From positions 1-23,291 of the forward strand of contig JAAETV010000293.1 of the NCBI GenBank assembly GCA_024227975.1: a stretch of DNA of 23,291 bases, written 5' to 3'. This stretch comes from Actinomycetes bacterium. Its GTDB lineage: Bacteria; Actinomycetota; Acidimicrobiia; Acidimicrobiales; SZUA-35. The translations under genes were made by a program, and so were the position numbers. Every line of letters begins with the position of its first letter. The first letter of the stretch is position 1. The notes beneath the pieces are model-generated. The model had not been told where the DNA came from, did no database searches, and was given only the letters and a program-made list of their open reading frames with translations. Below, piece by piece: positions 13,611 to 22,332 of this stretch.

Positions 13611-13712
13611 GTGGACACCCCCCAGTTCTTCGACGAGACCGTGATGTGCTGCCCACCGAAGGCATTGTTGATGGGCATGAGGACTGGAGTTGGAGTACCT
13701 GAATGGTCATGA
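13611..13712 (+). CDS. 33-aa candidate ORF linking the operon lead gene to cytochrome b
   Basis: GTG start one base after the preceding stop, with gagga seven bases upstream, and a TGA that overlaps the second possible ATG of the cytochrome b gene (13709) as ATGA. The peptide has a central MCCPPK motif with adjacent cysteines and no membrane helix. Exact filling of the intercistronic gap, a good ribosome binding site and the stop/start overlap favour real translation. It may be a small subunit, a metallo-peptide or only a coupling leader. Confidence 0.42.
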   Translation: MDTPQFFDETVMCCPPKALLMGMRTGVGVPEWS

Positions 13713-14515
13713 CTAGCCAAGACGAGTCGGTCAGCCCCAGTGGCTCCGATCTCGACCGACGCTCGAGCGAATCGACGAACAGATCCGGGCTTTTTGAGCG
13801 ATTCAGGTGGACACCAGTTGGTCGCTCCATCTGGCGCGTTCCCCGCCCCCACACTCGTCGTGACCGCTCGGCGGCCCACTGGGCCAGCTTCCTGCTTCAC
13901 ATCTACCCGGTCAAGGTCCGACGCTCCCAGATCGGCTTCAAGTTCTCCTGGTACCTCGGGGTGATCTCGGCGGTCCTCTTCGGATCGTTGACCGTGTCCG
14001 GGATCTACTTGATGTTCTTCTATGTCCCCTTGCCGGCGGCGGCCTACACGGACATTCAGACCATTCAAACCGAGGTTGCCTTCGGTCAGTACATGCGCAA
14101 CGTGCATCGCTGGTCGGCCCACTTGATGGTGCTTGGAGTGGCTGCCCATATGGCTCGGGTCTTCTATCGGGGGGCCTACAAGTCGCCTCGCGAGTTCAAC
14201 TGGGTCATCGGGGTGGTCCTGCTGATGCTGACCCTGCTGATGTCGTTCACTGGCTACCTCCTGCCGTGGGACCAGCTGGCCTTCTGGGCTGTAACCGTCG
14301 GCACGGAGATGGCGGCCTACGTTCCCATCGTCGGGGAGCAAACCAGGAGTCTCCTCCTTGGTGGAGCCATTGTTGGCTCTTCGACCCTGCTCCGCTTCTA
14401 TGTGCTCCACATCGCCGTCTTGCCGTCGATAACAGTCCTTGCGTTGATGATTCATCTGTGGCGCTGGAGGAAAGACTCCATGCTCGAGCTCGATCGTGAG
14501 GAACCCGATGTCTGA
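13703..14515 (+). CDS. Cytochrome b6-type subunit of a quinol:cytochrome c oxidoreductase
   Basis: 270 aa from the ATG at 13703, seven bases after tggag; a second ATG at 13709 is also usable. It corresponds to the N-terminal four-helix half of cytochrome b. The bis-His haem ligands are H135 and H149 in helix B and H236 and H251 in helix D. The 14 and 15 residue spacings are those of cytochrome b6 rather than mitochondrial-type b. GYLLPWDQ (184-191) is the Qo-side cd1 motif. The protein has no cysteine at all, so it cannot carry the covalent haem ci of b6f and Firmicutes complexes. A 55-residue hydrophilic N-terminal extension precedes the amphipathic helix. It is cotranscribed with subunit IV, overlapping by eight bases. 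Confidence 0.92.
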   Translation: MVMTSQDESVSPSGSDLDRRSSESTNRSGLFERFRWTPVGRSIWRVPRPHTRRDRSAAHWASFLLHIYPVKVRRSQIGFKFSWYLGVISAVLFGSLTVSGIYLMFFYVPLPAAAYTDIQTIQTEVAFGQYMRNVHRWSAHLMVLGVAAHMARVFYRGAYKSPREFNWVIGVVLLMLTLLMSFTGYLLPWDQLAFWAVTVGTEMAAYVPIVGEQTRSLLLGGAIVGSSTLLRFYVLHIAVLPSITVLALMIHLWRWRKDSMLELDREEPDV

Positions 14516-15080
14516 GGAACTCAAGTCGGATGACATCCGGCCACCGACCGAGGTCGGGCTGACGGCCAGGCCGCCGAAATCGGCCGACGGTCGCCGGATC
14601 CTCGGCATCGTCCCCGGCAAGCCGGTGGCCGGTGACCGCAAGGAAGTGGCCAAGGACGACATGGTCTACGTGTGGCCCCACCTCCTGGTCCGCCATGCCG
14701 TCGCCGGCATGTGGGTGCTCCTCCTCGTGCTGGTCATCTCCATCTTCTTCGATGCCCCCCTGCGCGATGTTGCCAACCCGGCCCTGACCCCCAACCCTGA
14801 AAAGGCGCCCTGGTACTTCGCCGCCCTCCAGGAGTTGTTGTCTCACTTCCACCCACTGGTGGCCGGGGTGCTGGTGCCGGGGGCTATCGTGCTCGGACTG
14901 GTTGCCCTGCCCTACATCGACCGGAGTCCCTATTTGGCGACCAAGCACCGTCGGGTTGCAGTCGCTACCTTCACCACCTTCCTCGTCATCTGGGTGATCT
15001 TGACCCTTGTCGGCTTCGCCTTTCGAGGACCCAACTGGGGGTGGGTCTGGCCCTGGCAGGAATGGCACGGGGAACTCTGA
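14508..15080 (+). CDS. Cytochrome b subunit IV (C-terminal half of cytochrome b)
   Basis: 190 aa from the ATG at 14508, which has gtgagg upstream and overlaps the cytochrome b6 stop by eight bases; a GTG at 14496 would add four residues. Three membrane helices (about residues 63-84, 116-135, 148-168) match subunit IV. The quinol-oxidising Qo loop reads KAPWYFAALQE where b6f and bc1 have PEWY, so the usual Glu is a Pro; to my knowledge such KAPWY forms occur in several other bacterial lineages. The N-terminal 50 residues are hydrophilic and cytoplasmic. The split b6 plus IV arrangement differs from the single long QcrB of classical actinobacteria. The gene ends in TGATG, overlapping a 26-codon ORF. 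Confidence 0.9.
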   Translation: MSEELKSDDIRPPTEVGLTARPPKSADGRRILGIVPGKPVAGDRKEVAKDDMVYVWPHLLVRHAVAGMWVLLLVLVISIFFDAPLRDVANPALTPNPEKAPWYFAALQELLSHFHPLVAGVLVPGAIVLGLVALPYIDRSPYLATKHRRVAVATFTTFLVIWVILTLVGFAFRGPNWGWVWPWQEWHGEL

Positions 15081-15160
15081 TGACACACAGACCACCCCAC
15101 GACGAGCCGAGGCCGAGCGCCGCTGACGGGCAATACCCCACGGGAGCAAGACATGAGTAA
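15080..15160 (+). CDS. 26-aa candidate ORF between subunit IV and Rieske genes
   Basis: The ATG overlaps the subunit IV stop (TGATG), with ggggaa about five bases upstream; the TAA lies eight bases inside the Rieske gene. The peptide is short, hydrophilic and proline-rich. Its position gives continuous translation through the operon, but its composition is not distinctive and chance cannot be excluded. Confidence 0.25.
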   Translation: MTHRPPHDEPRPSAADGQYPTGARHE

Positions 15161-15665
15161 TATCCTTGGACGACGCCAGTTCGTAGCCAGAGTCTGGAAG
15201 GCGGGTGGGGTCTTGGTGGCAGCCGCCGGCAGCCTGACCATGTGGGACCTCCTCCAACCCCTGCCTACGACTGGCTTTGGGGGGAAGGTTCGGTCCCTCC
15301 TTCCCGACTCCATAACCGAGAGCGCCATCGTCGAGGTGCCAGCGGCCCGTTCCTATTTGACCCGAGTCGACGATGAGATCGTCGCCCTCTCGAGGAAGTG
15401 CACCCACCTTGGTTGTGTGGTCCCCTACTGCGAGTCCTCTGGCCGCTTCGAGTGCCCGTGCCATGGTTCGGTCTTCAACCGGGCCGGTGACTTCTTGAGC
15501 GGACCGTCGCCCCGGGGCATGGACCGTTTCGAGACCGAGGTCGGCGACGATGGCCTCGTCTACATCGATACCAGCGAGCGGATCGATGGCCCGCCTCCTG
15601 GCACCGTGACCGTCGACGAACCAGCCCTTGGGCCGAAGTGCACTAGTGAAGGTGGGCACGGCTGA
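15153..15665 (+). CDS. Rieske iron-sulfur protein
   Basis: 170 aa from the ATG at 15153, with gggag upstream. The N terminus has a twin-arginine start (GRRQF) followed by one hydrophobic helix (about 14-30), so the folded domain is probably exported by Tat and stays anchored. Box I CTHLGC (C83, H85, C88) and box II CPCHGS (C101, C103, H104) give the 2Fe-2S ligands C83/H85/C101/H104 and the C88-C103 disulfide. GPSPRGMDRF is the conserved proline loop. Its head domain shuttles electrons from quinol at cytochrome b to cytochrome c. The short single-helix form is b6f-like, unlike the three-helix QcrA of Mycobacterium. The stop overlaps the cytochrome c start (TGATG). Confidence 0.93.
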   Translation: MSNILGRRQFVARVWKAGGVLVAAAGSLTMWDLLQPLPTTGFGGKVRSLLPDSITESAIVEVPAARSYLTRVDDEIVALSRKCTHLGCVVPYCESSGRFECPCHGSVFNRAGDFLSGPSPRGMDRFETEVGDDGLVYIDTSERIDGPPPGTVTVDEPALGPKCTSEGGHG

Positions 15666-16117
15666 TGGCCTCGTACCACAGCAGCGAGGATGTCGAGCTC
15701 GAGAAGTCGACGACCAACGTGATGATCATTGGTGCGGTGTTGCTCTTCGGGATGGCCCTCGTCTTCCCCTTCTACCGGTTGACCGAACCGGTCAACCGCG
15801 AGAATGCGTATGAGGAACAGCTTAAGTCGCTGGCGAGCTCGGGTGAGAGCCTGTGGTCCTTCAACTGTGCGTCATGCCATGGAGAGTCGGGTGAGGGCGG
15901 TATCGGCCCATCGCTCAACGCCAAGCAGTTCCTTCAGTCGGCGTCCGACTCCCAGATCGAGCTACTGGTCGCAGTTGGGGTTCCTGGCTCGCAGATGGGT
16001 GCCTACTCCCAGGACTTCGGTGGTCCCCTTACCTCAGAACAGATCAAGGCCTTGGCTGTCTACATCCGCTCGTGGGAAGAGGATGCTCCCGACAATCCAA
16101 ACTGGCGCGACGGATAG
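15665..16117 (+). CDS. Membrane-anchored mono-haem cytochrome c
   Basis: 150 aa. One N-terminal helix (about residues 17-37) anchors the protein, with the haem domain outside. The haem-binding motif is CASCH (C68, C71, H72), and M111 in VGVPGSQMGAY is the likely sixth ligand. The rest (LTSEQIKALAVYIRSW) is the usual class I cytochrome c C-terminal helix. The ATG overlaps the Rieske stop by one base, so it is translated right after it. It takes electrons from the Rieske centre and would hand them to a terminal oxidase, not encoded here. QcrC of most actinobacteria is di-haem, so a single haem is a notable difference. Confidence 0.92.
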   Translation: MASYHSSEDVELEKSTTNVMIIGAVLLFGMALVFPFYRLTEPVNRENAYEEQLKSLASSGESLWSFNCASCHGESGEGGIGPSLNAKQFLQSASDSQIELLVAVGVPGSQMGAYSQDFGGPLTSEQIKALAVYIRSWEEDAPDNPNWRDG

Positions 16118-16208: not shown

Positions 16209-17198
16209 ATGGAGTTGCAGTTCGGGCTGACGTTGCCCCAAAGGGGCCTGGATTTGGGCGTGTTCGAGACCGCGGCTGAGATGGTCGACCTGGCTCGGGC
16301 GGCTGAGGGTGAACCCCGCTTCGATTCGGTATGGGTTGGCGACTCGCTGACGGCCAAGCCTCGGCTGGAGTCTCTGAGCTTGCTGGGTGCCCTGGCCGGT
16401 GCTACCAGCCGGCTCCGTCTTGGTGTGGGCTGTATGGCCAGCTTCCCCGTTCGTGATGTACTGACATTCGCCTACCAGTGGGCGTCGCTCGATGTGATCT
16501 CGGGCGGGCGGATGGATCTGGCGGCCTGCACCGGGCTGGTACCGGCCAACAAGGCCAGCGCCCGAGAGGGGGCGCACTGGGGTGTACTCGACAAGGAGCG
16601 GGCGCCTCGGCTGGAAGACAACATCCGGGCCTGTCGGCTGTTGTGGTCTGGCGACGAGGTCAGCTTCGAGGGGACCCACACCTCGTTCGACGACTTCCGT
16701 CTCGCCACGGTCCCTCTTCAAGACCCGTGCCCGGTGTGGATCGCGGCCAACCCCTTCCCCGGACCCTTCTATGAGCGAGCCTTGAGGCGGGTGGCGACCC
16801 TGGCCGACGGATGGCAGACGGTGGGGCTGTTTCCCGACATGATGGGGAGCTCCTGGTCGGCACTCAAGGGCTACCTCGACGAGGCTGGTCGTGATATCGA
16901 TGCCTTCCCCCGGATGGCGTATCACAACGTGAACCTCAACCCCGACCGTTCGGCCGCCCTGGACGAGAGTGTTCGTTTCATCGAGGCCTACTACGGGAAG
17001 GGGTCCTTCACCCCGGCGATGGTCGAATCATGGACGGCGGCCGGGTCCGTCGAACAGGCGGCGGCAGATCTTCGGGCCGTGGCGGCCTCAGGGGCGACTG
17101 CTGTTACCTTGCGCATGACGAGTTGGGATCAGCAGGGCCAATATGAGCGGTTGGTGTCCGAGTTGCTGCCGGCGTTGGCTGGCTTGGAAGTGGCCTGA
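16209..17198 (+). CDS. LLM-class flavin/F420-dependent oxidoreductase
   Basis: 329 aa with the luciferase-like TIM-barrel pattern: LQFGLTLPQRG at the N terminus, FDSVWVGDSL (strand 2), SRLRLGVGCMASFPVRDV, LDVISGGRMDLAACTG (the loop usually contacting the flavin phosphate), LEDNIRACRLLWSGDEVSFEG and DPCPVWIAANP. The C-terminal segment (SVEQAAADLRAVAASGATAV) is typical of actinobacterial members, many of which use F420 rather than FMN; the cofactor cannot be decided by eye. The substrate is unknown. The ATG at 16209 is preceded by aaggag at a long spacing of about 11 bases. It converges with the GGDEF gene, with 29 bp between stops. Confidence 0.87.
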   Translation: MELQFGLTLPQRGLDLGVFETAAEMVDLARAAEGEPRFDSVWVGDSLTAKPRLESLSLLGALAGATSRLRLGVGCMASFPVRDVLTFAYQWASLDVISGGRMDLAACTGLVPANKASAREGAHWGVLDKERAPRLEDNIRACRLLWSGDEVSFEGTHTSFDDFRLATVPLQDPCPVWIAANPFPGPFYERALRRVATLADGWQTVGLFPDMMGSSWSALKGYLDEAGRDIDAFPRMAYHNVNLNPDRSAALDESVRFIEAYYGKGSFTPAMVESWTAAGSVEQAAADLRAVAASGATAVTLRMTSWDQQGQYERLVSELLPALAGLEVA

Positions 17199-17227: not shown

Positions 17228-19792
17228 TCAGATGAGGTTCCAGGGGCGGGCCGAGCCCGGCGTCGACGGGGCTTGGCGGGCGAGCATCGTCTGGAGTGAC
17301 TCGATGGGCATGGGTCGGGCCAGCAGGTATCCCTGGGCGAGATCGCAGCCCAGTCGGGTCAGCAGCTCAGCTTGTTCGGATTCCTCGATCCCTTTGGCCG
17401 TCACCCTCAAACCGATAGCCTGCCCAAGCTCGATGATGGCACCCAGCACTTGCCGGTCAGGTTTGGAGTCGACGGCCCGGTCGATGAGAGGCTTGGCCAG
17501 CTTCATCATGTCGATGTCGAAACGGCGAAGGTAGCTGAGCGAGGAGTAGCCGGTGCCGAAATCGTCGAAGGCGACCCGTATGCCGCGCCGCCGCATAGCG
17601 GAGATAACGGAGTCCTCCTGGTCGGCGTCGGCAATGAGTGCGGTCTCCGAGACCTCGACGACAAGCCGGCCACCGAAGCCACCGCTCGGTTCGAGGGAGT
17701 CAACGAACGCCGGCAAGTCCTTGGCCGCGAGGTGTCGGGCCGACAGGTTCACGGCAACGAAGAATGGCTCCTCAGCGCCAAACCGACCGGCTTCGGCCCC
17801 CGTGCTCCTTTCAGAAACGAGGCGCGCCTGGTCGTCCAATGCTCGGCGCAGAACCCAACGGTCAATAGGGATGACCGAGCCGTCGCGCTCGGCTTGGGTG
17901 ATGAACTCACTTGGTAGGACGAGACCCCGGTCGGGTGAGCGCCAACGGACCAGAGCCTCGACTCCGGCCACCCGCTGGTTGTCGATATCAATGACAGGCT
18001 GGTAGTGGACGACAAGGTCGCTCTCAGGAATCGCGGCTTGGTCATCATTGGATCGACGGTACCGAGGCGAGGTGTCACCGGGGAAGTGCTCGACGACAGA
18101 ACCCTTGCCTGCTTCCTTGGCTGCGTACATGGCCTGGTCAGCGTCGCGAAGTAGTTGGTTGGTCCCCATCTCATCGGTGCCCTTGGCCAGGCCGACGCTG
18201 CATCCGACGACGACGGAGTATCCGTCGAGATGGATCTCTTCCGTGAGCCGCTTCACGACCCGATCGGCGATCCGTCGCGGGTCGGATGAGCTACGGACCA
18301 GCATGGCGAACTCGTCGCCCCCCAACCGAGCCACCGTATCGATTGGTCGAACCAAGCTCGAGAGTCGCTGCGCCACCTCATTCAACACCAGATCTCCGGC
18401 CGCGTGACCATGGGTGTCGTTGACGATTTTGAAGTCGTCGAGGTCTATGAACAACACGGTGAACGACTCGTGGCTGGCGGCTGCGTCGTCGAGCCTGGAG
18501 TCGAACAGTGAGCGGTTCGGTAGGCCAGTCAGGGAATCGTGGGTGGCCTGATGGGCCAGCTTTCGTTCCAGCTTCTGGAGCTCGAGCAGTGCTTGCTCGA
18601 GCTGATCGCTGTGCAACAGGACAGCCGACTGGCGGGCCAGAGCTCCTAGCACCTGGAGGTCATCGGTACTGAACGAGCTGATGTCACCGATTGGGTTGGC
18701 GATGATGAGTACGCCCTGGACCTGATCGTCGGTCGCCAACTTGGCCACCATCGCGTCCCTACCCCCGACTTCGGCGACGGCCGGTTCGAGGGGGGAGTCT
18801 GAGCCAGCCTCAATCATGAGGGGCTCGTCGATGGTAGTGATGAGGTCGGCCACGGTGTCGGGATCAAGGCCCGATGGCCATACCTCGCTCTGGCCTCCTG
18901 CGTCGGAGTAGCGGACGAGGCGTGCCGGCGAGTCGTCATCGCCCAGGAGCAGGACAGCTCCGACCTCGGCTCGGAACATCTCTCGGGCTTCATTGAGCAG
19001 GGCTTGCAGGCCGTCGTCAGAGTCGGCGAAATCGAGATTGCGACTCGACCGGTATAGGAACTGGACACGTTCCCGCTGGGCTCGTTCCGAGGCGAAGATA
19101 CTGATCGTGCCGAGCACGAGGGCGCCGGGGGCAATGAGCAGTGCCACGCTCAGACCGTCGATCGGTAGCAGGAGGGCGGCGGCCAGCCCGACGGCGGTGT
19201 TGGCTCCACTCATGATTGTGCCGGCCAGGATCAGCTCAGAAGCCTTGTGACGATCCACGGCCCCTTCGGTCAGACCGATTGCAATCATGATGATGAGGAG
19301 AGTGGCTACACCCCCGGCTGTCGTGGCGAGGAAGACCGCAGCCCACGTTGCACGGTCGAGATAGGCGTCGGTGGCTGTCGCCCGTAGGAGTAGCGAGGCC
19401 ACCAGGGCGAACAGGGCCACATTGGCCACATTGAAGGCGACCTTGATCCAGGGTTGGTGCCGGCCCAGTCTCAACCCAATCATCATCCCCAGGACGGCGG
19501 CGCCCACGACGAGGCGGGGAGGTACATAGAGCAGACCGACAACGAGGGGGATTTCGAGGAGAGAGAAGCTACTGGCTTCAGCCCGGAATTGGACATGGAT
19601 GACTCGCCACTCGACGAGAGCAAAGAGGGGAACGAGAACGATGGCCGGAAGGGCCACATCGTCGAAGGTTGGCCCCTGGTCCCAGGCGTTGGCCAGGAGG
19701 GCGATGTCGAGCGCGACCAACAACACGATCAGGCCGAGTACCCGCTGGGTTGGATGCACCCTCTCCCAGGTTGCGTGCATCGCCAGCCGCAT
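17228..19792 (-). CDS. Membrane GAF-GGDEF-EAL cyclic-di-GMP protein with a degenerate EAL domain
   Basis: 854 aa. Residues 1-235 hold about seven membrane helices (MASE-like sensor). Residues 245-395 resemble a GAF domain, then a short coiled coil (397-415). The GGDEF domain (416-570) has an intact GGDEF at 491-495 and an inhibitory I-site R482xxD485 five residues before it, so diguanylate cyclase activity with product feedback is likely. The EAL domain (590-840) keeps E612-A-L, N682, E713, D743-D744, K764 and Q820. However, the Asp of the KxD pair is A766 (KLA) and the Glu of EGVE is K800 (AKGIE). Spacing matches the known enzyme RocR exactly (K316/E352/Q372 correspond to 764/800/820), so the general-base Glu is lost. 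The domain probably binds or senses c-di-GMP rather than cutting it (inference). Confidence 0.92.
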   Translation of the reverse strand: MRLAMHATWERVHPTQRVLGLIVLLVALDIALLANAWDQGPTFDDVALPAIVLVPLFALVEWRVIHVQFRAEASSFSLLEIPLVVGLLYVPPRLVVGAAVLGMMIGLRLGRHQPWIKVAFNVANVALFALVASLLLRATATDAYLDRATWAAVFLATTAGGVATLLIIMIAIGLTEGAVDRHKASELILAGTIMSGANTAVGLAAALLLPIDGLSVALLIAPGALVLGTISIFASERAQRERVQFLYRSSRNLDFADSDDGLQALLNEAREMFRAEVGAVLLLGDDDSPARLVRYSDAGGQSEVWPSGLDPDTVADLITTIDEPLMIEAGSDSPLEPAVAEVGGRDAMVAKLATDDQVQGVLIIANPIGDISSFSTDDLQVLGALARQSAVLLHSDQLEQALLELQKLERKLAHQATHDSLTGLPNRSLFDSRLDDAAASHESFTVLFIDLDDFKIVNDTHGHAAGDLVLNEVAQRLSSLVRPIDTVARLGGDEFAMLVRSSSDPRRIADRVVKRLTEEIHLDGYSVVVGCSVGLAKGTDEMGTNQLLRDADQAMYAAKEAGKGSVVEHFPGDTSPRYRRSNDDQAAIPESDLVVHYQPVIDIDNQRVAGVEALVRWRSPDRGLVLPSEFITQAERDGSVIPIDRWVLRRALDDQARLVSERSTGAEAGRFGAEEPFFVAVNLSARHLAAKDLPAFVDSLEPSGGFGGRLVVEVSETALIADADQEDSVISAMRRRGIRVAFDDFGTGYSSLSYLRRFDIDMMKLAKPLIDRAVDSKPDRQVLGAIIELGQAIGLRVTAKGIEESEQAELLTRLGCDLAQGYLLARPMPIESLQTMLARQAPSTPGSARPWNLI

Positions 19793-19798
19793 CTAGGT

Positions 19799-19825
19799 CA
19801 TATCGGCAGATGAGAAGCTGATATG
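19799..19825. promoter_or_regulatory. Inverted repeat just upstream of the GGDEF/EAL gene
   Basis: catatcggc (19799-19807) and gctgatatg (19817-19825) pair over nine bases with one G/T position and a nine-base loop. The element sits six bases before the minus-strand ATG at 19792, where the ribosome binding site should be and none is evident. It could be an operator or a hairpin controlling translation. Confidence 0.4.
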
Positions 19826-19888
19826 AAGCCAACCTGACCTGATGACCAACCGACAGTGCGATTGGCTCCAGGTGATCTCTGGTCGTCG

Positions 19889-20437
19889 TCAGTTGTTGAT
19901 GGCGGCCACCAGCTCGTTCACATCAGGGCGGTCGTCGGGCCCTTCGCCCCAGAAGCCCCAGGCCAGGGTCCTGTTGGGAGCGATGATGAAGTCGCCTCCC
20001 AACTGGAGGGTGTCTTCTCTCGGGTAGCGGAGCCCGGAGAGCCCATTGGTTCGTAGGATCTCCCAGTACCGGCGGGCGGCCCGCCACCCGTAGATTCTCG
20101 CCGCCGAGCCCCGTCCGAGTCCGAATGCTTGGTAGGCCCGACGACTGGGATCGACCAGAATGGGGAAGGGGACATCGTTGGTTGAGCGGTAGTAGACGAG
20201 GTTGGCCGGATCAGTGAAGGTGACGAGGACGACGTCGGTGTCCTGGCCGAGCTCTGAGAGCCGGTCGCTCACGGCGATGGCGTGGGCTGCACAGGGCAGT
20301 CAATGGATATGACGGTGGAAGATGAGGATGGTGTAGCGGCCCCCATGGTCGCTGAGACGCCAGGACTGGCCATCCTCATGGGTCAGGGTGATGTTGGGTG
20401 CCGGGTCGCCGATCCGGGGACGAGGCGGGGCTTGCAT
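19889..20437 (-). CDS. Peroxiredoxin-like (AhpC/TSA) selenoprotein with UxxC redox motif; TGA at 20300-20302 read as Sec
   Basis: Read through one in-frame TGA, the minus strand gives a 182-residue AhpC/TSA thioredoxin-fold protein. The N terminus RIGDPAPNITLTHEDG and strand TILIFHRH are typical of Prx-like (PRX-like2, SelL-related) proteins. The next residues are I-H-U46-L-P-C49, where relatives have a redox Cys at the U position. The fold then continues without a break: DTDVVLVTFTDP, VPFPILVDPSRRAYQAFGLG and GGDFIIAPNRTLAWGFWGEG. A call that stops at the TGA would start at the GTG at 20272 and lose the first strand, helix and redox motif, which makes no sense for this fold. A SECIS-like hairpin lies downstream (separate entry). 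Role: thiol/peroxide redox chemistry in the cytoplasm. The ATG at 20437 follows gaggag with almost no spacer. A sequencing error or inactivating mutation is the alternative; Sec insertion is favoured. Confidence 0.8.
20256..20272 (-). promoter_or_regulatory. Candidate bacterial SECIS hairpin
   Basis: In the mRNA, GTGAGC-GACCG-GCTCTC folds into a stem (four perfect pairs GAGC/GCTC, then a mismatch and another G-C pair). The five-base apical loop starts with G, about 33 bases after the TGA. Bacterial SECIS elements are small hairpins with a G in the first two loop positions, 16-37 bases from the UGA. A second small hairpin (CACG...CGTG) overlaps it but lacks the loop G. Confidence 0.5.
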
Positions 20438-20475
20438 CTCCTCAGGGTAGGGCGTGGTTGACTACAGATACAAAT

Positions 20476-20487
20476 GTCCGTATATTC
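20476..20487. promoter_or_regulatory. Near-palindrome in the divergent promoter of the selenoprotein and SulP genes
   Basis: ccgtatattcgg, around 20478-20489, is an inverted repeat with ten of twelve symmetric positions, in an AT-rich patch that also offers a TATATT -10-like hexamer. Only 56 bp separate the divergent starts, so a factor bound here could control both genes. The coordinates are approximate to two bases. Confidence 0.35.
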
Positions 20488-20493
20488 GGCTAT

Positions 20494-22332
20494 ATGAGGT
20501 CTGCGGCTAGATTGCTCCCGGTCTTGTCGTGGGGGCCGAGCTACGACCGCTCGAACCTGCGGCCAGACCTGGCCGCAGGGGTAACCGTCGGCGCCATGCT
20601 GGTGCCCCAGGCCATGGCCTATGCCCTGCTGGCCGGTCTTCCACCCGCCATAGGGCTCTACGCCGCCACCGTCCCTGTCATCGTCTACGCCCTGTTCGGT
20701 ACGTCCCGCCAGCTGGCCGTGGGGCCGGTGGCCATCGTCTCGCTGATGACAGCATCGGCCCTAGCTCCCTTGGTCACCGAGGGGTCGGCGGGCTACGTCA
20801 GTGCTGCGGCCCTGCTCGCTCTGATGGTCGGTGCAGTCCATCTGGTGCTGGGGGTTGGTCGGCTCGGATACTTGGTGAACTTGCTGTCGCACTCGGTGTT
20901 GGTGGGTTTCACCGCCGCCGCCGCCATCATCATTGGTTTCTCTCAGGCCAGACACTTGCTCGGTATCTCAATCGAGCGCAAGGACCACTTCTACCAGACG
21001 GTGCTGGCAGTGTGGAAAGGCGTAGGTGAAACCAATGGGTTCACCCTGACCGTCGGCCTTGTCTCCCTGGCTACCCTGTTCGGGCTCAAGTCCCTCCGGC
21101 CCCGGGTGCCGGGAGCACTGGTGGTGGTGATCGGGTCGATCTTGGTTGTCGAGCTGTTTGGCCTCGAGGCCCGGGGGGTGAACGTCGTTGGTGACATCCC
21201 CGACTCGCTTCCCGCCTTCGGGCTACCCGATTTCGACGGGTCACTGATGGGTTCGCTGGCGATGGCGGCGTTCGTCATCACCCTTGTCGGGTTCATGCAA
21301 TCGGTCGCCGTGGCCAAGGTCTATGCCCGTCGCAATCACTATGAGGTGGAGCCGAACCGGGAGCTGATCGGTCTGGGTGCGGCCAATGTGGCCTCTGGTC
21401 TCTTCGGTGGCTACCCGGTCACTGGTGGCTTGTCCCGTACCGCTGTCAACGTCACCGCCGGAGCCAAAACCCCGTTGGCCTCGATCGTGACTGCCCTCAT
21501 CGTCATAGTGACGATCGCCTTCTTCACCCCCTTGCTGTCCTCGCTACCCAGTGCGGCGCTGGGGGCCATCATCGTCATGGCTGTGGTAGGGCTGGTCGAT
21601 GTGGCCGAGATGCGCCATATCGCCAGGGTGAAGAAGTCTGATCTGGTGGGATTGGGTGTGGCCTTCGTTGCCACTCTGGCCTTGGGGATCGAGATCGGCA
21701 TCATTGTGGCTGTGGTTGCTTCCGTACTGGTTGTGTTCGCCCGGATGTCGATGCCCCACTCAGCCGTGCTCGGACACGTCAAGGGCACGACGAGCTTCCG
21801 CAATGTCGACCGCTTCCCCGAGGTGACCACGCTCAGAGGGATGACGGTGGTGAGGGTCGACGCTGCTGTGTCGTTTGTCAACGCAGCCAACGTGAAGAAG
21901 CTGCTGCTGGCCCATGCCGACGAGGTGGCCACTACCGAACCCCGAGTGCTCATCCTCGATGCCTCGGGGATCAACGACATCGACGCCACCGGGGCCGAGA
22001 TGCTCCGTGAGCTATTGGGTGAGCTCGAAGAGCGCTCGGTCGCTCTCCACTTGAGTGATGTGAAGGGCCCGGTTCGCGATGTGTTGCACCGGGCCGGCCT
22101 GTGGGACCTGATCAGGACCCGCGTCCACACCAGTACCAATGATGCCGTCGAGGCGATCACGGGCCGCCGGTCGGCCCCCATCGATCATCGCCGCCATGGC
22201 ATCGATGAACGTGCAGATGCTGGTCCTCCACTGGCCGTCGAACTTGATCCGCACCTGGACCTTGGTCAGGATACGTGTGGCGCTGGGCGGGCCGTTAGGG
22301 AGGTACCGCCGGGAGATGGCGGTTCGAGCTGA
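20494..22332 (+). CDS. SulP/SLC26 family anion transporter with C-terminal STAS domain
   Basis: 612 aa from the ATG at 20494; the frame is open upstream but that part lies in the divergent promoter. The family signature is clear: PDLAAGVTVGAMLVPQAMAY (residues 23-42), GLPPAIGLYAATVPVIVYALFG, and SRQLAVGPVAIVSLM. Ten or more membrane helices reach to about residue 425. A STAS domain follows (about 440-560), with VLILDASGINDIDATGAEML. SulP proteins carry sulfate, bicarbonate, chloride or other oxyanions; the ion is not readable here. The last 50 residues, after the STAS helix (from TGRRSAPIDHRR), have poor third-position bias and may be a read-through tail, perhaps from an old frameshift. A link to selenate supply for the divergent selenoprotein is only speculation. 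Confidence 0.9.
   Translation: MRSAARLLPVLSWGPSYDRSNLRPDLAAGVTVGAMLVPQAMAYALLAGLPPAIGLYAATVPVIVYALFGTSRQLAVGPVAIVSLMTASALAPLVTEGSAGYVSAAALLALMVGAVHLVLGVGRLGYLVNLLSHSVLVGFTAAAAIIIGFSQARHLLGISIERKDHFYQTVLAVWKGVGETNGFTLTVGLVSLATLFGLKSLRPRVPGALVVVIGSILVVELFGLEARGVNVVGDIPDSLPAFGLPDFDGSLMGSLAMAAFVITLVGFMQSVAVAKVYARRNHYEVEPNRELIGLGAANVASGLFGGYPVTGGLSRTAVNVTAGAKTPLASIVTALIVIVTIAFFTPLLSSLPSAALGAIIVMAVVGLVDVAEMRHIARVKKSDLVGLGVAFVATLALGIEIGIIVAVVASVLVVFARMSMPHSAVLGHVKGTTSFRNVDRFPEVTTLRGMTVVRVDAAVSFVNAANVKKLLLAHADEVATTEPRVLILDASGINDIDATGAEMLRELLGELEERSVALHLSDVKGPVRDVLHRAGLWDLIRTRVHTSTNDAVEAITGRRSAPIDHRRHGIDERADAGPPLAVELDPHLDLGQDTCGAGRAVREVPPGDGGSS

Follow-up and report, generated by a model that had tools for sequence, protein, structure and literature searches.

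A gene on the minus strand of the window (here the whole stretch of 23,291 nucleotides that was analysed) very probably encodes a peroxiredoxin-like (Prx-like) selenoprotein of 182 residues that is related to SelL. The gene runs from an ATG at 20437 to a final stop TGA at 19889-19891 (19889..20437), and comparison of sequences makes it highly probable that a UGA at codon 46 (20300..20302) is decoded as selenocysteine (Sec). tRNA-Sec and SelB would read this codon, and a stem-loop inside the gene, 19-40 nt downstream of the UGA and with a loop of the form N-G-U-N-N, would recruit SelB. Sec46 would sit just before the first long helix of the Prx/Trx fold, three residues ahead of Cys49, and the two residues of this U46-L-P-C49 motif might form a reversible selenenyl-sulfide. 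The protein may be a thiol-disulfide oxidoreductase or a thiol-dependent peroxide reductase rather than a classical TxxC peroxiredoxin, because Sec occupies the Ser/Thr place of the classical motif; the chances that its exact activity is as proposed are about even. We infer Sec insertion in the window organism, as well as the redox chemistry and the substrate of the protein, and the closest relatives suggest that the host is an uncultured member of the Acidimicrobiia.

The read-through frame and its protein

The frame carries a single internal TGA, in the context FHRHIH-U-LPC, and is closed 5' of the ATG by a TAG at 20462-20464. The preliminary description had reported a minus-strand frame that is coding around one TGA at 20300-20302, codon 46, within an HULPC motif, and both coordinates and motif prove exact. 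Is the part upstream of the TGA truly coding? The Pfam family AhpC-TSA (PF00578) matches continuously across the TGA, over residues 9-111, with 66.5 bits (cut-off 26), which bears out the claim. The Pfam family Redoxin is also matched, and so is AhpC-TSA_2 (PF13911), presumably the group of SelU/PRXL2, with 48.8 bits (cut-off 27). The NCBIfam profile NF040769 (SelL_rel_redox) is matched with 124.4 bits, above its cut-off of 120. Codons upstream of the UGA evolve as protein, with a mean pN of 0.32 and pS of 0.63 (39 codons compared with 18 relatives), and F40 and R42, both upstream, are invariant among relatives. Purifying selection acts on both flanks of the TGA. Selenoprotein genes are marked by conserved coding sequence that flanks an in-frame UGA on either side, and this gene shows it.

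Without read-through, the list of open reading frames offers only a frame of 127 aa (P0002; 19889..20272, minus strand) that starts at GTG 20272, the conventional and mis-annotated form of the gene. A search of the protein database yielded 681 relatives, and the best 120 of these measure only 117-149 aa, in agreement with the earlier remark that routine annotation would miss such a protein. From these 120, 41 relatives were taken into a 42-sequence alignment, and the relatives in the rows shown (20 of the 41) start at or after the codon that follows the UGA. Residues 1-75 compared with the protein database gave four candidates, none significant, by a method that requires exact five-residue words. 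A full-length close relative thus seems to be absent from that database.

An AlphaFold model of the full 182-residue product, made with 46 sequences, has a mean pLDDT of 90.8. It places residue 46 after strand 35-40 and just ahead of helix 47-58. The first three strands and the redox residue are all encoded by codons 1-46. Among PDB structures, the closest folds are those of Bcp/PrxQ, AhpE and Tpx, and ResA ranks lower. The initial assignment to the Prx-like/SelL-type proteins holds up. The UxxC pair is predicted to lie at the helix start of a Prx/Trx fold, a position suggestive of a selenenyl-sulfide redox centre.

How might the two redox residues divide the work? In the profile alignment, Sec46 falls on the Ser and Cys49 (TGT, 20291..20293, minus strand) on the Cys of the SPVC motif of the PrxQ-type protein 2cx3. 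The 2cx3 cysteine is taken here to be peroxidatic, and the Cys49 column is invariant in the alignment of relatives. This correspondence, and the top fold matches to Bcp/PrxQ, AhpE and Tpx, speak for a mechanism in which Sec is kept but the protein is a Prx peroxidase, with Cys49 as the peroxidatic and Sec46 as the resolving residue. However, with one exception the loci inspected (sets of 66 and 85) have Sec or Cys at the first position, as befits an attacking residue, and the ResA thiol-disulfide oxidoreductases also match profile and fold. A peroxidase of this kind is considered possible but rather unlikely; the reading preferred is that of Sec46 and Cys49 joined in a selenenyl-sulfide.

The hairpin downstream of the UGA

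A published model of the bacterial SECIS (bSECIS), in the portion of the source consulted, has a loop of 3-9 nt, a stem of 4-16 bp, an MFE of -7.5 or lower, a G among the first two loop nucleotides and a spacing of 16-37 nt (PMC13188914). A hairpin with bacterial SECIS geometry had been reported 33 bases downstream of the UGA. A conserved hairpin does exist, but at +19 to +40 after the UGA (20260..20281, minus strand) and not at +33.

In 54 UGA-aligned sequences, the identity of synonymous codons was judged against codon usage in those genes. Codons +8 to +11 stand out with z of 8.5, 6.7, 10.9 and 14.2, the median over positions being 0.5, and codons -1 and +1 reach 7.9 and 9.0; other outliers are codons -27, -4, +34 and +57 (z 4.3-7.1). 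Constraint at codons +12 to +17 is at most z 3.7 (at +14), as against 6.7-14.2 at +8 to +11, which argues against a hairpin at +33. Folded over 20240-20305, the window sequence alone is no more stable than its shuffles (z +0.65). Next to the UGA, CAT is found in 36 of 37 His codons before it and CTG in 45 of 54 Leu codons after it. The CAT TGA CTG of the window (20297..20305, minus strand), with silent positions kept in relatives, is a likely recoding context.

The stem pairs +19-26 with +32-39 (or 40) and encloses a loop at +27-31, mostly CGUGC or CGUGA, that begins 26 nt after the UGA. In the window, the apical loop is CGUGA (20269-20273, minus strand) and the upper stem pairs +23-26 with +32-35. 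Positions 2 and 3 of the loop are invariably G and U, both of which a conserved Val codon alone would fix. An initial model, with 13-19 paired to 27-33, was dropped because individual folds gave the 19-26/32-39 stem.

Is the pairing itself kept? The six core pairs form in 89.7% of cells, and two positions vary in pair type (CG/UG/UA and GC/GU/AU/CG). On three of five measures, covariation is greater than in any of 500 shuffles; on the other two it lies within the shuffles. Natural sequences form a mean of 5.38 of the six core pairs, as against 4.43 after synonymous recoding (z 8.2). The gain over recoding resides in pairs 22-36, 24-34, 25-33 and 26-32; there is none in 20-38 and 23-35, and 19-39 forms less often than in recoded sequences. 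The outer pairs 19-39 and 21-37 are formed in only 20 and 23 of 52 sequences, respectively. The telling SECIS test is that of the specific hairpin: 39 of 53 distinct sequences have one with an NGUNN loop in the same position, as against a mean of 9.2 and a maximum of 13 in 30 recodings. The loose bSECIS model is not such a test, being passed by 46 of 52 sequences (50 of 53 with a longer stretch) and by 32.1 of 53 recoded controls on average. Judged by these comparisons, the SECIS is under selection in the relatives.

The hairpin of the window satisfies the bSECIS rules at their limit (-7.5 kcal/mol, a 5-nt loop CGUGA with G second, 26 nt). On its own it is no better than shuffles (z -0.74), and in a longer context there are competing folds, one of which prefers a loop 23 nt downstream. 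The window hairpin is therefore weak alone, and the case rests on comparison. RNAalifold gave no consensus structure on the ungapped alignment, perhaps because of two alternating registers of the lower stem and some poorly pairing sequences. An Rfam search of 19700-20700 at E<=10 returned no Sec element, only five matches with low scores.

Could these marks belong to a start codon instead? GTG 20272, the start of the 127-aa frame, sits inside the SECIS loop. If the functional product were a short protein from this GTG, the upstream part would be a separate short frame and the TGA a true stop. Gene predictors do choose the GTG start, here and in relatives, and the GTG at codon +10 is strongly kept (48 of 54), as a start would be; the remaining six, however, have GTC, which is not a start codon. 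Codons +8, +9 and +11 are silent-constrained too, which a start codon leaves unexplained. The protein-like evolution of the upstream codons (pN 0.32, pS 0.63) and the invariant F40 and R42 also weigh against a short product, which would have no redox residue and has only 82.7 bits on NF040769, where the cut-off is 120. This alternative is very improbable.

The UGA codon and the Sec machinery in relatives

Species genomes were scanned with peptide patterns from the C-terminal half, which are blind to the UGA site, and 66 loci were obtained. These are mostly from Acidimicrobiia, with others from further actinobacteria (Thermoleophilia, Nitriliruptoraceae and others), Chloroflexi, one planctomycete and one myxococcal genome. 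One of the loci, L034, belongs to a cultivated bacterium, Ilumatobacter nonamiensis YM16-303. The codon-46 column is TGA in 65 of the 66. The motif is UxxC in 60 loci, UxxU in five distant ones (four Chloroflexi, one Myxococcales) and SxxU in one, a SAR202 homolog (L043) with TCA at the first position and TGA three codons later. Of 85 further loci, which partly overlap with these, 74 have TGA in this column and 11 have TGC or TGT, with no other codon. The proposal that the TGA marks the redox position therefore stands: nearly all relatives inspected have TGA or a Cys codon there, the SxxU locus being the exception.

Exchange of Sec and Cys is a classical mark of selenoproteins, and Cys homologs at the UGA position exist here (the 11 of 85 loci, and L131). 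The Cys form L131 is found in a genome (G153) where selA, selB and tRNA-Sec were not found. Another, L162, has a very close motif (FHRHLA-C-LPC) and lies in a genome with selA, so the exchange also occurs inside Sec users.

Wider samples give a similar picture, although the locus sets (66 loci, order, 397 genomes, class and phylum) partly overlap and related sequences are not independent. Among 148 genomes of the order, 48 matches reach E<=1e-12; the 30 strongest (E<=2e-24; 30 genomes), counted as the UGA form, all have TGA in an HULPC-type motif. The 18 weaker matches, many of them partial, comprise five with one TGA and 13 that are stop-free, and two of the latter (in G153 and G161) span the profile. 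L131 comes from this sample, as does L132, which looks like an ordinary CPYC protein. A set of 397 genomes of the order gave 33 matches at E<=1e-40, each with exactly one TGA. Matches to NF040769 at E<=1e-15 have one TGA in 93 of 118 cases in the class sample (24 stop-free, one with TAG); in the phylum sample this holds for 40 of 52, the other 12 being stop-free. The reading of stop-free forms as Cys is confined to the inspected loci (11 of the 85-locus set, plus L131).

Related, distinct Sec paralogs were also seen (L126-L130, L172-L189 and L192-L217), e.g. with FLRHFG-U-LHC, AIRYYG-U-IPC and WLRHYG-U-TFC. Four of the loci (L176, L182, L188 and L189) have FLRHFG-U-LFPK, in which the alignment shows no Cys at the second position.

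Do the organisms with this gene have the means to insert Sec? The machinery was tested in 50 genomes that carry the gene (the 42 closest of the 66 loci and eight of the other 24). selA or selB is present in all 50, selA at E<=1e-30 in 48 and selB above its cut-off in 47. A tRNA-Sec of at least 59 bits is present in 42. The curated tRNA-Sec cut-off is passed by 44 genomes, but it is leaky, as five of 14 control genomes also pass it, some of which are not known to use Sec. ARAGORN named all 30 tRNA loci submitted as tRNA-SeC with anticodon tca. selD was found in 42 of the 50 genomes (G001-G050), in 38 of these 42 with an in-frame TGA of its own; these bacteria thus probably have SelD as a second selenoprotein. 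In both regions read, selA adjoins selB. Most matches of the Acidimicrobiia SelB cover only the first ~340 of the 581 positions of TIGR00475. The last winged helix (PF09107) is present in both SelB proteins checked (G034, contig C299, L133:1753-3471; G010, L134:298-2019), and the region between the TIGR00475 match and this helix seems divergent.

In the order sample, selA is found in 88 of 148 genomes, in 28 of 30 with the UGA form as against 60 of 118 others (p 7e-6); the selA and UGA-form samples are taken, from size and handles, as one draw of 148 genomes. The two UGA-form genomes without selA have no selB at E<=1e-50, yet they have a tRNA-Sec of 67 bits, which fits incomplete assemblies. 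For the wider family, 31 stop-free-only genomes and 48 of 106 UGA-form genomes were compared (36 from the phylum sample and 12 high-ranked ones from the class sample), leaving out G702 (a partial match) and G571 (TAG). There selA occurs in 44 of the 48 UGA-form and 24 of the 31 stop-free-only genomes (p 0.10). As selA is common in the stop-free-only genomes too, the co-occurrence is weak in the wider family.

Might the UGA be read by a reassigned or suppressor tRNA as Cys, Trp or Gly? Cys is the exchange residue in homologs, and a Cys-inserting tRNA would give a working protein. However, TGA is the final stop in nine of ten window frames checked, the selenoprotein gene among them, and thus the genetic code is not reassigned; moreover, relatives have selA, selB and a tRNA-Sec with anticodon tca, and the SECIS is conserved. 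Decoding as a residue other than Sec has very little in its favour, and Sec is by far the preferred assignment. That the TGA is a damaged TGC or TGT, a sequencing error or a pseudogene mark, as the 11 of 85 relatives with TGC or TGT might suggest, is refuted by its conservation through many assemblies (65 of 66 and 74 of 85 loci), by the lack of any other stop in the window frame and by purifying selection on both sides, and hardly deserves further consideration.

The window itself showed no sel gene among 20 of its ORFs compared with Pfam, and no tRNA in its 23 kb; the Sec machinery is demonstrated, by gene matches, only in relatives of the window organism. No conserved gene neighbourhood or steady partner was found; clustering gave mostly overlapping-ORF artefacts. 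On the plus strand, genes for a cytochrome b, a Rieske protein and a cytochrome c stand in a row (13703-16117), as in a bc1-type complex, and are followed by a luciferase-like monooxygenase (16209-17198). A GAF-GGDEF-EAL protein (17228-19792, minus strand) is encoded on the same strand as the selenoprotein gene, 96 bases downstream of it. A divergent SulP-STAS permease (20398-22332, plus strand) overlaps the start of the selenoprotein gene in its longest reading, and its true start is probably further in. A SulP-STAS-like ORF is near the selenoprotein gene in three other loci.

Place among known selenoproteins

Prx-like UxxC selenoproteins are an already known, predicted kind. They have been reported from the Sargasso Sea (PMC1088965) and in the Global Ocean Sampling set, where SelL is named ‘a Prx-like protein’ (PMC2398784); a 'ULPU-containing selenoprotein' is entered in a table of another survey, on a line with the numbers 26 and 28 (PMC5029168), and the Prx-like PF00578 UxxC/UxxU family stands in recent tables (PMC13188914, PMC9312934), as far as the excerpts of these sources show. 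No selenoprotein study of Acidimicrobiia was found among the papers listed in searches of the open-licence literature.

The preliminary description held that selenoproteins are sparse in actinobacteria. For this order the view fails, as selenium use is common in the sample (selA in 88 of 148 genomes). It is understandable, because a 2006 census, in the portion at hand, placed Actinobacteria among three family-rich phyla, with 12 families and 19 proteins, and 12 of these 19 were those of Symbiobacterium (PMC1794560).

What is the wider significance? A broad reading, held with somewhat better than even confidence, is that Acidimicrobiia use Sec widely, with a radiation of SelL-related Sec proteins that gene prediction shortens, so that a large actinobacterial selenoproteome would be for the most part unseen. 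The motifs of such proteins in Acidimicrobiia include HULPC, RHULPC, AIRYYG-U and FLRHFG-U, among others. As part of this same reading, UGA would be the usual state in the class (93 of 118 in the sample), and the HRH clade would have a SECIS with an NGUNN loop at a fixed position. The finding gives a corrected annotation for a redox gene, the predicted proteins of which lack the catalytic residue. The SECIS, with about 50 natural variants, offers material for testing recognition by actinobacterial SelB. No new principle is involved; of interest are the SECIS within the gene, with its many natural variants, and the broad, almost uniform occurrence of the Sec form in its Acidimicrobiia clade.

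How does the protein compare with known systems? The agreement with the Prx-like PF00578 UxxC/UxxU thiol:disulfide oxidoreductases, as their family is described (PMC13188914, PMC9312934, in the parts available), extends to both domain and motif (66.5 bits and UxxC). Likeness to NF040769 is near full-length, residues 12-179 aligning with profile positions 2-172, and its members elsewhere share the TGA, in six of nine genomes above the cut-off in the class sample and 12 of 15 in the phylum sample. The profile covers the clade only at its edge, with scores about the cut-off (L010, 119.4; L034, 118.6; L040, 130.3 bits). PrxQ/Bcp and AhpE have a similar fold, with TM-scores to the query of 0.74 for 3hjp (Bcp4) and 0.71-0.72 for 1xvw (AhpE). 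They differ at the first motif position, where the Ser/Thr of TxxC is replaced here by Sec46; the TxxC or TxxU of a classical peroxiredoxin is thus absent. With SelL, the common ground is a ULP motif in a Prx-like protein. SelL has a UxxU pair, which forms a diselenide. The window protein, with its ULPC, is not SelL in the strict sense, and by comparison with SelL as described it would form a selenenyl-sulfide rather than a diselenide.
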